Source of the DNA: Pseudomonadota bacterium
GTDB lineage: Bacteria; Desulfobacterota; Desulfobulbia; Desulfobulbales; SURF-16
Reading direction: 5' to 3'
DNA length: 32,371 nt
Assembly (NCBI GenBank): GCA_030597865.1
Contig: JAUVQZ010000004.1
Span: 1-32,371, forward strand
Shown here: piece by piece, positions 3,123 to 9,491 of the stretch
How positions within the stretch are numbered: the stretch's first letter is position 1
How the letters are laid out: each line of letters begins with the position of its first letter
Made by a program: the position numbers and the translations under genes
Notes under the pieces: generated by a model
What the model was told of the DNA's origin: nothing
The model's input: the letters and a program-made list of their open reading frames with translations, nothing else
Database searches by the model: none

Positions 3123-3521
3123 ATGTACGGGGTAACCCAGGAACAACTCGATCAGATTGATGCGCTCATAGTTTCAGACCTTATTGGCATCGGTGTTCAC
3201 AGCGTTATCGTTGTTGATGTTGCCGGTAATGTCATTGCCGAACATGATGACGGCAAGACAGATATCCAGGTCCATGCCTTTGCCGCCCTTGCCGCAGGGA
3301 ATTTTGCGGCGGTGGATGCCATGGCCCAGCTTGTTGGTGAACAGGAATTCTCCCTCCATTTTCATAAGGGTGAGGATGAGTCGATTCATTTCAGCAAGAT
3401 CAATGATGATATCTTGTTAATCACCATTTTTGGTAATGATGTTTCGTTAGGCTTCCTACGCCTGAAAACAACAGAAGTTATCGATAAGATTAAAGAAATG
3501 TGGCAGACTACAGAGTTTTAA
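3123..3521 (+). CDS. Roadblock/LC7 (MglB-like) protein
   Basis: 132 aa, 'SVIVVDVAGNVIAEHDDG...FAALAAGNFAAVDAMAQLVGE...FHKGEDESIHFSKINDDILLITIFG', typical Roadblock pattern; immediately upstream of an MglA-like GTPase. Confidence 0.8.
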   Translation: MYGVTQEQLDQIDALIVSDLIGIGVHSVIVVDVAGNVIAEHDDGKTDIQVHAFAALAAGNFAAVDAMAQLVGEQEFSLHFHKGEDESIHFSKINDDILLITIFGNDVSLGFLRLKTTEVIDKIKEMWQTTEF

Positions 3522-3552
3522 GGGTGGCGCTCTGTGGGTAAAAAAGTTTATT

Positions 3553-4170
3553 GTGAGGTGTGTTTTGGGATTTGTAAATGTTAAGAAACAGGAGGTTCTG
3601 GTCAAACTCGTTTATTACGGGCCGGGCCGCGGTGGCAAAACCAGTAACCTCGATTACATCAATAACAAGTTTAAAGAACGCATAAAAACGGACATGGTCA
3701 GTATTAAGACCCATGGCGACCGGACCCTGTTTTTTGATTTTCTTCCTGTTGATATCGGTAAGATCAAGGGGTTTGATATCAAGATCCAGCTCTATACCGT
3801 ACCTGGCCAGGTTAAGTATAATGCCACTCGGAAGCTTGTTTTAAAAGGGGTTGATGGCCTGGTCTTTGTTGCGGATTCCCAGGTCGAGATGAGGGAAAAG
3901 AATATCAGCTCCTTTAACCAGATGAAGGAAAATCTGGTTGCCATGAATAAGGACATCGCTAAGATCCCCCTGGTGCTTCAGTATAATAAGGTCGATCTGG
4001 CAGAGGAGGGGGTGCCTCTTCTTGGTTTTGATACCATGGAGGCTGATCTTAATAGTGAAATTAAGGTGCCCTCCTTTGAGGGTAGTGCTGTCACTGGCTA
4101 CAACGTCGTTAATACCTTGAAAAAAGCCATCTCGCTCACCATGGTTTCATTCAAAAAAGAGTTGCTGTAG
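3553..4170 (+). CDS. MglA-type Ras-like small GTPase
   Basis: P-loop GPGRGGKTSN, LYTVPGQVKYNATRKLVLKGVDGLVFVADSQ, and YNKVDL (NKxD). GTG start given by the ORF track; exact start uncertain. Confidence 0.9.
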   Translation: MRCVLGFVNVKKQEVLVKLVYYGPGRGGKTSNLDYINNKFKERIKTDMVSIKTHGDRTLFFDFLPVDIGKIKGFDIKIQLYTVPGQVKYNATRKLVLKGVDGLVFVADSQVEMREKNISSFNQMKENLVAMNKDIAKIPLVLQYNKVDLAEEGVPLLGFDTMEADLNSEIKVPSFEGSAVTGYNVVNTLKKAISLTMVSFKKELL

Positions 4171-4182
4171 GAGAGTTAATTT

Positions 4183-5925
4183 ATGTCCGCCCAAGATTCT
4201 GCCCAGACCGTTGATATTCTTGAGAAGCTGAAGTCGGCAATTCTCAATATAGATTGGGAAATTTCTGATGATAATATCGGGATTCTAGATCAGGAGATTG
4301 CTGCGCTGCGTCCTGTCTGGCAAGGGCAAAAGGTCCATATGATTTATTTGCAGATTATGGGGGCCCTGAGTCAATACATTGCCAGCACCCGTGAGCAGGC
4401 CACTCCTGCAGCCTTTCCCATGCTGCGCAATGTCTTTGACAGCCTTGAGGATATGGTTGTTAATCCCAGCGATGAAGATCAGCAGACTGAGAAGGCCATG
4501 GTGCATGTTGATGCCTATAATGAGCTGAAAAAGTCGGTTTCCTCAGGCAAAACAGAGCCTGCTCCTACTCCTGAGCCGGAACCGGAACCTGAAGTGGAAG
4601 TTGTTGAGGCCCAAGGGCAAGGGGAAAAAGAGGCGGATGAGGAGCAGCCCTCGACCATTAATAGTCTCCTGAATGACAAAGAAGATCATACCACGGACTC
4701 TATTTTTGATTCTATGCTTGATGAGATGGTTCAGGTGGAGCCACCGGAACAGGAGGCGTCGGCACCACCACCGAAGGCCCCGCCTGCCCGTCCACCGGTG
4801 CAGACCGCCTATAACAAGGATGACGGTACTGAGGTTGAAGCTGATCGTAATATTGATGGTCAGTTTGCCGAGGCAGATGAGCTCCTGGATGATTTTTTTG
4901 TGGATGATGTGCCTGCCCCTGGCGCTGCAGGCCAAAAGGATGGCGATGAGTTTGATTTAGGCGCCCTTGATGGGGGTGAAGAGGCTGGCCTGGAGCTGGA
5001 TCTGGCGGATGATGGTGATACCACAGAGACGGCGGGGGGGGAGCTTGGTGAGGATCTGACCTCTGACGCCCTTGCTGATGTGGAGGACAGTGATCTCGAT
5101 ATCTTTAAGGTTGAGGAAGAATCAGATAAGGTGGAGATTTCTGAGCCAGAGCCAGAGGCAGCAGAGTTTCCAGAGGTGGAATCTGCCCTTGATGACTTCT
5201 TTGCCGGCGAGGAGGAGGCCACACCTTCCCAGGTGGTTTCTGCGTCCCTTGGGGACGCTGGTGCTGGAGGGGACCTTGGTGAGGTCGATGCCGCCCTGGA
5301 TGATTTCTTTGATGATGAAGAGCCCAAGGCCGCCAAGCCAGGGGGTGAAGTGGTTCCAGAGACAGCTAAGGAGGCCGTCTCGGTTGTCGAGGGTGGTTCA
5401 GCCGTTACGGTTGCAGGCCTCAAGACATTGCTGCTGTCCGTTGACTGGGAGGTGGATGACCAGCTCCTTGACCGGGTTGACCTGGAGATTTCCGCCCTGT
5501 CTGAGAACCTGACCGGAAATGATAGCGCCCTTATCCACCTCAACTTCCTGCAGACGGTTATTCGTCATGTCAGCAGGGAGCAGTCCCAGGTGATTTCCGA
5601 GTCCATGGCCTGCTTGAACATGCTCACGGAAAGTCTCGAAGAGCTCCTGGCCGATGAGGGGGGAAGGGAAGCCTGGTATGCGGCCAAGGCAGTTTCCTCC
5701 TTTGTTGACTGGCATGAACTGGTGGTTGCCGAGTTTGAAAAGCGTCTTGATGCGGCCAAGGGGCAGGGTGGCGAGGTAGCAGAGGGTATAGAGGGATTAG
5801 CACTCTCTGCAGAAGGTGAAATCTCTGAGACCCAGAGGCTGAAGAAGGAAATTCTCTCTGAGGTTCGTGACATTCTCTCCAAGGAGATGCAGATCATGCG
5901 CCAGGAACTATCGGCTAAAGGCTGA
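4183..5925 (+). CDS. Acidic low-complexity protein with duplicated terminal domain and three LDDFF motifs
   Basis: N-terminal 'LEKLKSAILNIDWEISDDNIGILDQEIAAL' is repeated near the C-terminus as 'VAGLKTLLLSVDWEVDDQLLDRVDLEISAL'; linker contains LLDDFF, ALDDFF, ALDDFF. Confidence 0.8.
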   Translation: MSAQDSAQTVDILEKLKSAILNIDWEISDDNIGILDQEIAALRPVWQGQKVHMIYLQIMGALSQYIASTREQATPAAFPMLRNVFDSLEDMVVNPSDEDQQTEKAMVHVDAYNELKKSVSSGKTEPAPTPEPEPEPEVEVVEAQGQGEKEADEEQPSTINSLLNDKEDHTTDSIFDSMLDEMVQVEPPEQEASAPPPKAPPARPPVQTAYNKDDGTEVEADRNIDGQFAEADELLDDFFVDDVPAPGAAGQKDGDEFDLGALDGGEEAGLELDLADDGDTTETAGGELGEDLTSDALADVEDSDLDIFKVEEESDKVEISEPEPEAAEFPEVESALDDFFAGEEEATPSQVVSASLGDAGAGGDLGEVDAALDDFFDDEEPKAAKPGGEVVPETAKEAVSVVEGGSAVTVAGLKTLLLSVDWEVDDQLLDRVDLEISALSENLTGNDSALIHLNFLQTVIRHVSREQSQVISESMACLNMLTESLEELLADEGGREAWYAAKAVSSFVDWHELVVAEFEKRLDAAKGQGGEVAEGIEGLALSAEGEISETQRLKKEILSEVRDILSKEMQIMRQELSAKG

Positions 5926-5939
5926 GTGTAAGTGACGCC

Positions 5940-6749
5940 ATGTTAGTATTTTGTGAAGATTGCGGCAAAAGGCACTCTGTCAAGGGGGGCGGTGATGAGA
6001 ATGGTCGCCTGCAGTTTCGGTGCGATGCCTGTGGTTTCCTCATAACAGTCACCTCGGTACCGCCCCAAAAGCGGCAGGCAAGCGCGCCTGATTCCTCTGT
6101 GGAGCTCACTTGTTCCCATGCTGAACTTGATTTGGGCTGCGCCCTTGGCGATGATGAACCGGCTACGAACCTTTTTTTGGCCGCCAGTGATGGCCGCAAG
6201 GTTGAGCTTGAGGTCAAGGTTCTCCCAGAGGTGCAGGGCAATATTGCCGTGGAGCAGATATCTGCCAACGTCTTTAAGGTTCGCGTTGTCGCCTCGGCAA
6301 AAATGGGGGCTGATTTCCTCAACGGCTATGATGGTCCCTGTCTGGGATTTTTCGATGGTATCTCCGGCGCCCTTCATACGGTGACGGTTATTTTCAGTCG
6401 GATTAAACCCTCTTTTGCCCTGAAACCCACCACGGTTTATTTGGGCAAAATAGGTGCTGATACCCTTGCTGAGGGCAGTTTTGTTGTTGAAAATTGTACA
6501 GCTGCGCCCCTTGCCGTCACCGTTACCCCTGATCCGCAATGTTTTTCTTTAACGAGTTTCTTTACCCTTATTTCTGATACCAGCTTGATTCTGGCTGGGG
6601 GAGAGGAGAGGGTGATCTCTTTTTCCGTGCGTTTAAGTGAGGGGGCGGACAGTGATGAGCCGTTTGACCAGGTTGTCCTTGTGACCGCCAGTGACAGTGA
6701 TGAGCGGCCGGCGCAAAAGGTCCGCATTATTGCAAGCCTGGAGGTGTAG
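5940..6749 (+). CDS. Zn-ribbon (CxxC...CxxC) plus beta-rich domain protein
   Basis: MLVFCEDCGKRHSV...LQFRCDACGFLITV at the N-terminus (MJ0042-like finger), remainder beta-sandwich-like; no signal peptide evident. Confidence 0.6.
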   Translation: MLVFCEDCGKRHSVKGGGDENGRLQFRCDACGFLITVTSVPPQKRQASAPDSSVELTCSHAELDLGCALGDDEPATNLFLAASDGRKVELEVKVLPEVQGNIAVEQISANVFKVRVVASAKMGADFLNGYDGPCLGFFDGISGALHTVTVIFSRIKPSFALKPTTVYLGKIGADTLAEGSFVVENCTAAPLAVTVTPDPQCFSLTSFFTLISDTSLILAGGEERVISFSVRLSEGADSDEPFDQVVLVTASDSDERPAQKVRIIASLEV

Positions 6750-6889
6750 AGCAGTTCCCCCGTAATGGCAGGGCAGTTTTATTGGACAGCCCAGGGGATA
6801 ATCATGATATTTCTGGCCTAGGAGCCTGGCGGACGCAGATAGAAGCGCTACAGCAGTAGCGATAGGTCAAAAGGGGAATAGTTGAGGGT

Positions 6890-7243
6890 ATGGAGCGTAT
6901 TATTGACGGGTTGGTGCATTCGGTGAAGGAAATAGGTGGGGTCTATCTCTACGATTTCCATAAAAATATTATCTTAAATCGGATGCCTGAGACATTCAGT
7001 GAAGAGAGTCTCATTGTCCTGGCAGAAAAAATGGTTCGCAACCTGAATTTAGGGAAGAGCCGCTATACCGATATTGCCGAGGTGTCGCTCCATTTTGGTG
7101 ATAGTAATATAACCGCAAAGGAGATGCGGAGCGACCGCCTCCTCATTGTTATGTTTAATCCGTCTGTCAACAAGCAAAAGCTGCACATGTCCCTGGAGCT
7201 TGCCTTGGAAAGCCTGGCAGAGGCTGCAGTGGAGGGACTCTGA
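6890..7243 (+). CDS. Small Roadblock-like protein
   Basis: 117 aa, 'IDGLVHSVKEIGGVYLYDFHKNIILNRMP...LHFGDSNITAKEMRSDRLLIVMFNPSVN', Roadblock-like pattern; co-directional in the operon. Confidence 0.55.
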   Translation: MERIIDGLVHSVKEIGGVYLYDFHKNIILNRMPETFSEESLIVLAEKMVRNLNLGKSRYTDIAEVSLHFGDSNITAKEMRSDRLLIVMFNPSVNKQKLHMSLELALESLAEAAVEGL

Positions 7244-7245
7244 TC

Positions 7246-7599
7246 ATGACGACCCTGTATGATTTTACCAAGGTGAAAGGGGTTGTTGGTGTTGCTGAAT
7301 ATGTCCTTGTCCGCCAAGATGGTCATCTCATGGTGCACGATGCCCAGGACCATGAGGCTCTTGCCCAACTTGTTCTGTTATGCGGAAGTAATTGTGACGC
7401 AATTAAGGCCGACATTCCCAGCCGTTTCCACTATTTTCTCTTCAGCAGGGAGTGCGGTGAACATCTTATGGTTTTTCCGGTTGGTGGTTATTATCTCGGT
7501 GTTGTGCAAACATCTGCAGTGGAAAGCTCCCATGTGGCCACGACAGTAATAGACTTTATCCGCAAGCTTGTCCGCCAATCAAGACAATCTGAGTCTTAA
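7246..7599 (+). CDS. Small Roadblock-like protein
   Basis: 117 aa, starts 3 bp after the preceding stop codon; 'VVGVAEYVLVRQDGHLMVHDAQDHEALAQLVLLCGSNCDAI...HYFLFSRECGEHLMVFPVGGYYLGVVQ'. Confidence 0.5.
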   Translation: MTTLYDFTKVKGVVGVAEYVLVRQDGHLMVHDAQDHEALAQLVLLCGSNCDAIKADIPSRFHYFLFSRECGEHLMVFPVGGYYLGVVQTSAVESSHVATTVIDFIRKLVRQSRQSES

Positions 7600-7858: not shown

Positions 7859-8308
7859 TTACAGGGGTGTGTGGCATCCTTTGCAGGAGGTGGGGCCGGT
7901 GCTGAGGGCCGCTTTTTTCATACTCTTGTGGCAATCGAGGCAGAGGGTATGCATATATTTTTTGACGCCCCCGGCATTAACTACCTCCTCGGCCTGTCTC
8001 TGCTTGGTCGTCTCGGAACGAATATCCCCACCACTCTCCACCCCTGCATGGCAGGCTGTACAGGTAAACCCATTGTCATAGGGCCTGCTGGCATGGGCGC
8101 TGTTATTGGTAAGATAGGTTGTGGTGTGCTTGGCATGGCTAAAGGCTGGTGCTGATTTACTGTCCTTGCCCATTGCACTTAATGCCGGGTTTGATGCCTG
8201 GAGGTTGATATCGATGGTCTCAGGAATATCAAGGGCCAGACAATGTGTGCTGAGTCCTAAAACCAGGATTGCCGCTGTGAATAATGATGTGGGTACTGTG
8301 TTTTTCAT
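7859..8308 (-). CDS. Small triheme c-type cytochrome (c3/c7-like), exported
   Basis: Signal peptide MKNTVPTSLFTAAILVLGLSTHCLALD; CTACH, CLDCH, CKGCH. Confidence 0.8.
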   Translation of the reverse strand: MKNTVPTSLFTAAILVLGLSTHCLALDIPETIDINLQASNPALSAMGKDSKSAPAFSHAKHTTTYLTNNSAHASRPYDNGFTCTACHAGVESGGDIRSETTKQRQAEEVVNAGGVKKYMHTLCLDCHKSMKKAALSTGPTSCKGCHTPL

Positions 8309-8534: not shown

Positions 8535-9491
8535 GTGGCGAAATTATCAACCCAAAAAAATGAAAAAACATCCTTGAAAGATAAAGCTCCCGCATCAGCT
8601 CTCACCATGGTCCGTATTGATGGCAGCCTTGTTCGCCAACTGCGCGAAGAAAAGGGGTTGACCCAGCTCTACCTTGCCACTGCCGTGGAGGTAACCACGG
8701 ACACCGTTTCCCGCTGGGAAAACAGGCATTATCAATCCGTTAAAATGGAAAACGCCCAGCGGCTGGCTGAGGCCCTGGGGCTAGAGCTTGGGGCCATCCT
8801 TGAGGCCGAGCATGGGAGTGATCATACAGAAGTCACTGCACCAGAAGGGACTCCCCTGCCCGCTGGCAATGGAAAAAAACAGCCTGCCCTGCTTCTGCCT
8901 TTGCTGGCCCTCCTCTTTATATTCCTCGCCTCTGTTGTCTACCTCTGGCTGCAGGAGCCGACGCCGGAAATTACCCTTGAGGCAACCCGGAAAACTCCCA
9001 GCCATGCCATGCCCGGCTATCCCTTCCCCGTGTTGATCACGGTTGAGACCATGTCTCCCCCCCTTTCCGTGGTGATTAAGGAGATCCTGCCGGCCCACGT
9101 CCGGATAACATCCTCCTCCGCCACCCTGCAGCCCGTGGACAGGGCTGAGTTGAAATGGATTGTCAAACATATGGCAGGCCAGCAGCGTTTTGGCTATATG
9201 GTCATGGCCTCCGGCAGGGAGAGTCTCCATTTTCAAGGTTCGGTGACCACCAGGGCGGGCCGGAAAAAGGAGGTTGTCATCGCTGGCAGGCAGTCCTTGG
9301 TCATGGCTCCCTATCACTGGGCGGACAGCAACCAAGACGGCATCATCAGTGACGATGAGATCCTGGTGGTCTATGACGATTTTGATGATGTTGCCGGTCT
9401 AAACGTGGATGTGGAGCTGGTGGAGGAGATGTGGATGGGCAGTGGCTATAGCTGGAATAAGGCGAAGGGACTCTTTGAGGTCATTCCGTAA
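8535..9491 (+). CDS. Membrane-anchored XRE/HTH protein with C-terminal EF-hand-like loop
   Basis: HTH 'LVRQLREEKGLTQLYLATAVEVTTDTVSRWENRHYQSVKMENAQRLAEALGLEL', TM 'ALLLPLLALLFIFLASVVYLWL', C-terminal DSNQDGIISDDE. GTG start. Confidence 0.8.
   Translation: MAKLSTQKNEKTSLKDKAPASALTMVRIDGSLVRQLREEKGLTQLYLATAVEVTTDTVSRWENRHYQSVKMENAQRLAEALGLELGAILEAEHGSDHTEVTAPEGTPLPAGNGKKQPALLLPLLALLFIFLASVVYLWLQEPTPEITLEATRKTPSHAMPGYPFPVLITVETMSPPLSVVIKEILPAHVRITSSSATLQPVDRAELKWIVKHMAGQQRFGYMVMASGRESLHFQGSVTTRAGRKKEVVIAGRQSLVMAPYHWADSNQDGIISDDEILVVYDDFDDVAGLNVDVELVEEMWMGSGYSWNKAKGLFEVIP

Follow-up and report, generated by a model that had tools for sequence, protein, structure and literature searches.

A Desulfobacterota operon in which a phylum-wide core of MglB, MglA and a scaffold with an unnamed domain is joined by a zinc-ribbon protein and a Roadblock-like pair, with a possible link to type IV pili

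The stretch of DNA analysed here (the window; positions 1 to 32,371 of contig JAUVQZ010000004.1, assembly GCA_030597865.1, 32,371 nucleotides from a member of the Desulfobulbales, SURF-16) carries six genes arranged around an MglA/MglB pair, the best-studied bacterial Ras-type polarity switch and one that is known in depth mainly from Myxococcus. All six lie on the + strand between positions 3123 and 7599. They encode, in order, the Roadblock/LC7 protein MglB (3123..3521, 132 amino acids), the small Ras-like GTPase MglA (3565..4170, 201 amino acids), an acidic scaffold (4183..5925, 580 amino acids), a protein with a zinc ribbon and a beta region, here called ZNR (5940..6749, 269 amino acids), and two proteins of 117 amino acids each, R1 (6890..7243) and R2 (7246..7599). 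The intergenic gaps are, in gene order, 43, 12, 14, 140 and 2 base pairs, and the 140-base-pair spacer upstream of R1 shrinks to 3 base pairs or to an overlap in two relatives. The initial annotation of this DNA had described six tightly spaced, co-directional genes, and the open reading frames, their positions and their strand agree with that description. In comparison with two congeners, the ratio of nonsynonymous to synonymous substitution rates (dN/dS) ranges from 0.01 to 0.27 over the six genes, indicating purifying selection: it is lowest for MglB and MglA (0.01-0.04; MglA 0.03-0.04), followed by R1 and R2 (0.06-0.19), ZNR (0.16) and the scaffold (0.20-0.27). Because the ratio is low in all six, all are real genes and none is a chance open reading frame.

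The first two proteins are identified by several lines of evidence. MglB matches the Pfam family Robl_LC7 (PF03259) with an expect value (E) of 1.7e-8 and the NCBIfam MglB model with E 8.9e-16, under the cut-off of that model, and its gene lies immediately 5' of mglA in relatives as well; it is a putative GTPase-activating protein (GAP) of MglA. MglA matches Pfam Ras (E 2.4e-8). Its orthologues are 201 amino acids long and begin GF[VI]NVKK, and the start codon is thus likely to be TTG 3565 rather than the GTG 3553 of the earlier open reading frame call (3553-4170). The GxxxxGKT/S P-loop, the conserved arginine in GDRTLFFDFLP, the TVPGQ motif with its catalytic glutamine and the NKxD motif are all intact, and the arginine, TVPGQ and most of the P-loop are invariant in the alignment of orthologues. 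With these motifs in place the predicted GTPase should be active. The family matches, the motifs and the adjacency of the two genes uphold the original identification of an MglB-like Roadblock protein and an MglA-type GTPase.

The scaffold (24% aspartate plus glutamate, 7% lysine plus arginine) contains two copies of an unnamed domain of about 102 amino acids, here called DOM, located toward both ends of the protein and separated by an acidic stretch. Copy 1 (4219..4518, + strand) matches the DOM profile with E 4.1e-30 and carries the motif LK..IL.IDWEI.D, and copy 2 (5413..5670, + strand) matches with E 4.9e-19; the W-E pair in ILSIDWEI is near-invariant. An AlphaFold model of DOM consists of five helices (mean confidence, pLDDT, 93.5; predicted template modelling score, pTM, 0.86). 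Three copies of an acidic-aromatic motif, LDDFF, occupy the linker on the + strand (4885..4899, 5188..5202 and 5296..5310), and all 11 of the family-f1 scaffolds scanned contain one to three copies where 0.01-0.22 would be expected. The label of acidic repeat protein given to this gene at first was therefore apt as regards its acidity and its three LDDFF motifs, but overlooked two conserved copies of a helical domain.

Neither the scaffold nor R1 or R2 has a credible Pfam match. A Foldseek comparison of the DOM model with the PDB returned no significant match (E 0.15 or worse), and the DOM sequence profile found only scattered helical matches in the PDB. The nearest fold is the helical bundle of the CheA P1/Hpt domain, with template modelling scores of 0.6-0.7. 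Identification of DOM as an Hpt domain was nonetheless rejected, given the Foldseek values and the fact that the phosphorylated histidine is not conserved; the commonest histidine in the DOM alignment (73%, column 69) sits in the loop between helices H3 and H4 and is a threonine in copy 1 of the window. In a similar manner the scaffold was rejected as a RomR, since it is without a receiver domain (no Response_reg match). Three scaffold genes in the survey (L057, L058 and L060) encode proteins of about 2500-2640 amino acids, in which just two DOM copies were detected together with very long extra regions.

The distribution of this scaffold is revealing of its association with the switch. Of 246 genomes in the class, 176 contain a homologue, and in nearly all of the neighbourhoods examined the homologues come after mglB and mglA. 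Among 80 named loci selected by MglA alone, a DOM gene is present within 2 kb of 47 of 55 MglB-coupled mglA genes, as against 3 of 26 uncoupled ones. From the opposite direction, a DOM profile search of the phylum that was blind to MglA matched 53 of 247 genomes, and mglA adjoins DOM in 32 of the 40 loci fetched from these matches. The mglB-mglA-DOM synteny thus holds across the order and the phylum, with Desulfogranum, Desulfobulbus, Desulfocapsa and Desulfoprunum among the named relatives in the survey, which put the window within or close to the Desulfobulbales; DOM genes with no detected mglA neighbour were seen in genomes G118 and G006. The initial annotation had called the scaffold dedicated, which was correct insofar as it is a real and conserved partner of MglBA and too narrow insofar as its domain is phylum-wide. 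No account of the DOM operon came to light in a search of open-access papers. The mglA genes at loci L155-L177 form a distinct class with no adjacent mglB, and directly downstream of several of them is a gene for a DUF4388/PATAN-like protein of some 390 amino acids.

R1 and R2 had been described from the outset as Roadblock-like, a description that is upheld for R1 by structure prediction and for R2 by weaker profile matches. AlphaFold, given four sequences, models R1 (mean pLDDT 79.7, pTM 0.70) with its elements in the order alpha-beta-beta-alpha-beta-beta-beta-alpha, and nearly all of the best Foldseek matches of this model in the PDB are Roadblock proteins or Roadblock-containing complexes, MglB included, with E values from 9e-7 to 6e-5 within the first fifty matches. 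Identity between the R1 model and MglB structures is 13-20%. R1 therefore has a predicted Roadblock fold and is a candidate MglC-like protein; it also carries an NKQK cluster that is found in family f1 only. For R2, 13 of the 14 chains matched by its profile in the PDB are dynein roadblock light chains (best E 0.018), matches that are individually weak but jointly consistent with a Roadblock-like partner of R1. Sequence profiles gave less for R1: its profile found nothing relevant in the PDB, and hhalign comparisons of R1 and R2 with MglB were not significant. An iterated R1 profile that reached all MglBs was treated as drift and not as proof, a hand-trimmed R1 profile having missed them. There is a further resemblance between R2 and the C-terminal part of DUF4388 proteins, one of which is adjoined by an R1-like gene (L072).

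ZNR begins with a four-cysteine zinc ribbon (residues 1-35, CEDCG...CDACG), followed by a beta region resembling ASH/HYDIN domains. The match to Pfam Zn_ribbon_4 is weak (E 0.0029, below cut-off), a homologue at L255 matches the HYDIN Ig-like model at E 6.2e-5, just under cut-off, and Pfam detects no DUF3426 in ZNR. In distant Desulfobacterales (L142, L145 and L154) a zinc ribbon is fused to R1, with R2 following, and at L149 of the same order it is fused to R2, the only one of the two present; in family f6 (L250) the order is mglB-mglA-DOM-[zinc ribbon-R1]-R2. These fusions all sit directly after or near DOM. R1 and R2 are themselves in tandem in 34 of the 39 places where R2 occurs in the class, mostly with R1 first, and this includes places unlinked to mgl. 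Because of the fusions and the constant gene order, there is good evidence that the zinc ribbon, R1 and R2 function together. Elsewhere the gene after DOM encodes a zinc ribbon joined either to an FHA domain (L106, L116, L129 and L136) or to Cache/HAMP domains (L110, L121, L138, L140 and L147). The FHA loci often have an additional MglB gene, giving variant operons in which two MglB genes flank mglA and are followed by DOM and then the zinc ribbon-FHA gene. A zinc ribbon was found within 3 kb of 29 of 134 DOM genes; single cases prove little, since zinc ribbons of the ZNR type are common.

These distributions bear on whether the window holds one system or two neighbouring and unrelated units, namely an mglB-mglA-DOM triad of ancient origin and, apart from it, an accessory R1-R2 pair, with the zinc ribbon, that acts elsewhere. 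R1-R2 is unlinked to mgl in family f4, and L255 has ZNR and R2 without mgl, as a division into two units would predict; two mgl-unlinked R1-R2 loci (L252 and L253) adjoin receiver-DUF4388 genes, one of them also adjoining a histidine kinase. Such a division is nevertheless improbable, given that the same order recurs in family f6 and in the Desulfobacterales loci named above, and that R1-type genes are also present in a second mgl locus (L241, L256 and L257). ZNR, R1 and R2 lie downstream of the scaffold in G021, G162 and G068, and in the congener G118 (L038, 7009-9174) they have been lost together with mglB and all but the last codons of mglA, while the scaffold open reading frame stays; G118 retains only the second type of mglA. 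The neighbourhood survey proposed with the initial annotation found the set of six to be conserved, with fusions in distant relatives.

The evidence as to what this switch controls comes from other mgl loci. The genome of the window possesses a second mglB-mglA pair (contig C264, L074), followed by a scaffold-like gene of which only the first helix resembles DOM. The same locus encodes an ATPase (L074:7414-9585) in which TPR, MshEN and T2SSE regions are joined. In relatives (L256 and L257) this second locus continues with genes that combine receiver-DUF4388 and R2-like domains in one protein, next to R1. In other orders, a PilB-like gene is present on the same strand within 8 kb of 18 of 53 DOM loci (9 of 29 and 9 of 24), each of the six ATPases tested scores best against the NCBIfam PilB model, and receiver-PATAN regulators recur beside DOM operons. 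The TPR protein SgmX is the link by which M. xanthus MglA recruits PilB to the pole (PMC11580455), and in a cyanobacterium the PATAN regulator PixE interacts with PilB1 (PMC7690835, citing Jakob et al. 2019).

The operon can accordingly be read, with moderate confidence, as the form that the MglA/MglB polarity module takes in the Desulfobacterota, controlling type IV pili. Computation supplied the gene content, the predicted folds of R1 and of DOM, the conservation, the fusions, the tandem pairing and the genomic linkage of DOM operons to PilB-like ATPases and receiver-PATAN regulators. The reading is strongest on the DOM scaffold, which is conserved and unnamed, and weakest on function, which is drawn from linkage in paralogous and distant loci. 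Several observations weigh against this reading. In none of 27 relatives within the order does the first, window-type locus have a PilB-like gene closer than 8 kb, which is why the pilus link has to come from paralogous and distant loci. The PilB-like ATPases score below the PilB equivalog cut-off; PilT-family genes are present in all 59 genomes tested, making their co-occurrence uninformative; and most members of the family lack R1-R2 and ZNR, which are for this reason regarded as accessory.

Alternatively, the same complex may have another output, positioning some other machine of the pole or envelope (type II secretion, chemoreceptors or cell-wall synthesis), with the PilB-like ATPase serving a different assembly. 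The core is kept without a nearby PilB in Desulfobulbales-type loci and the linked ATPases score well against GspE too, both of which would fit such an output, but PilB remains the best model for every ATPase tested and the PATAN regulators that recur at the same loci are tied to pili in cyanobacteria (PMC7690835), such that this alternative appears unlikely. Flagella or flagellar chemotaxis fare no better as an output: the presence of flagellin does not track the mgl core, which is retained in genomes lacking a flagellin match, and the genome of the window, in an assembly about 93% complete, has no flagellin match. Chemoreceptor positioning, which had been suggested at first, is for these reasons not favoured.

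The genes flanking the operon were also considered. A CheZ-like gene lies upstream (1100-2605, + strand, 501 amino acids), its best CheZ match being the last 100 or so residues after a long N-terminal extension. A coupling of the operon to this gene had been proposed in the initial annotation and is unsupported: a tRNA-Cys gene on the opposite strand (2772-2847) intervenes between it and mglB, and CheZ was seen adjoining mgl only inside the genus (L034 and L038). The larger GTPase-controlled assembly that had been proposed with this coupling retains its other elements, that is, the Roadblock relatives, the conserved scaffold partner and the conserved set of genes. Downstream of the operon are a small multihaem protein of the class III cytochrome c type (7859-8308, - strand) and an Xre-type helix-turn-helix (HTH) gene (8535-9491, + strand) with a C-terminal EF-hand-like DxNxDGxIxDEE stretch.

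This HTH gene is downstream of the operon in most of the family-f1 relatives looked at, a recurrence that might point to a transcriptional signalling operon whose zinc-ribbon and Roadblock products act as regulators. Zinc ribbons are able to bind nucleic acid. The Group 3 MglA systems, which together with the conservons would be the model for such an operon, include a predicted winged-HTH protein (PMC4316618). In the window, however, the HTH gene lies beyond the opposite-strand cytochrome gene, it was not found beside distant mgl loci, and Pfam and NCBIfam detect no credible DNA-binding or kinase domain in the six proteins except for the weak zinc ribbon, leaving a transcriptional role highly unlikely. 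The actinobacterial conservons and Group 3 systems resemble the DOM operon in being conserved operons around MglA and MglB with extra partners (PMC4316618), but the present operon has no histidine kinase or winged-HTH partner, its extras being the DOM scaffold, the zinc ribbon and the Roadblock pair. Nor is it a conservon in the sense of CvnA plus CvnC, as no kinase domain corresponding to CvnA was found in the six proteins.

If the operon is indeed a polarity module for type IV pili, a mechanism may be outlined, for which we infer all binding, the GAP activity of MglB, the polar location and the pilus output. MglA would be the switch, cycling between GTP and GDP under its GAP MglB, and the DOM scaffold would gather MglA, MglB and partners, its acidic linker offering possible docking motifs. 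The R1-R2 pair may act like MglC, bridging the scaffold and MglB and relaying an input to the GTPase. An adaptor role could fall to the zinc ribbon, which would tether R1-R2 or other sensory domains to the complex much as the ribbon of ZitP binds PopZ (PMC5182065), and the output would most likely be that type IV pili are assembled or extended at one cell site. A more general proposal, put forward tentatively, is that DOM is an undescribed family serving as the standing scaffold of Desulfobacterota MglA switches, onto which the zinc ribbon docks interchangeable inputs (Roadblock pair, FHA, Cache-HAMP or beta domain), so that one GTPase licenses a PilB-type motor.

In Myxococcus, mglA is located away from its partner genes, whereas here all genes are in one operon. 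The MglA/MglB/MglC/RomR/RomX module of M. xanthus is alike in having MglA with a Roadblock partner MglB, further divergent Roadblock proteins and an acidic hub with a long linker, MglC and MglB forming a complex with RomR, whose C-terminus is acidic (PMC10329633, PMC12719032). It differs from the present operon in that the scaffold here has DOM but lacks a receiver, the place of the single MglC is taken by a Roadblock pair together with a zinc-ribbon protein, and no RomX or RomY was identified; R1 matches MglC in its predicted Roadblock fold and very low identity to MglB, and R2 does so by weak profile matches only. The MglA/SgmX/PilB pathway likewise connects MglA with a TPR element and with PilB, the extension ATPase (PMC11580455), but at the second mgl locus the PilB-like MshEN ATPase encoded beside mglBA has the TPR region fused to it. 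ZitP likewise has an N-terminal CxxC...CxxC zinc ribbon, which in its case binds the polar hub PopZ, and ZitP is required for pili (PMC5182065); the ribbon here is a possible adaptor of this kind. ZitP, however, is a membrane protein with DUF3426, whereas the ribbons here carry a beta region, Roadblock, FHA or Cache-HAMP domains.

By analogy, then, the operon would be of a known kind, working like the Myxococcus polarity module while differing from it in organisation, scaffold domain, Roadblock pair and zinc-ribbon adaptor. Group 1 MglA neighbourhoods have been reported to be widely variable (PMC4316618). The DOM neighbourhood is strongly conserved across the phylum and points to probable partners of the switch, namely the scaffold with its DOM domain, the Roadblock pair, the zinc ribbon as adaptor, PATAN regulators and a motor resembling PilB. 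These partners are direct and testable candidates for the route by which an MglA switch may reach the type IV pilus machine in the Desulfobacterota.

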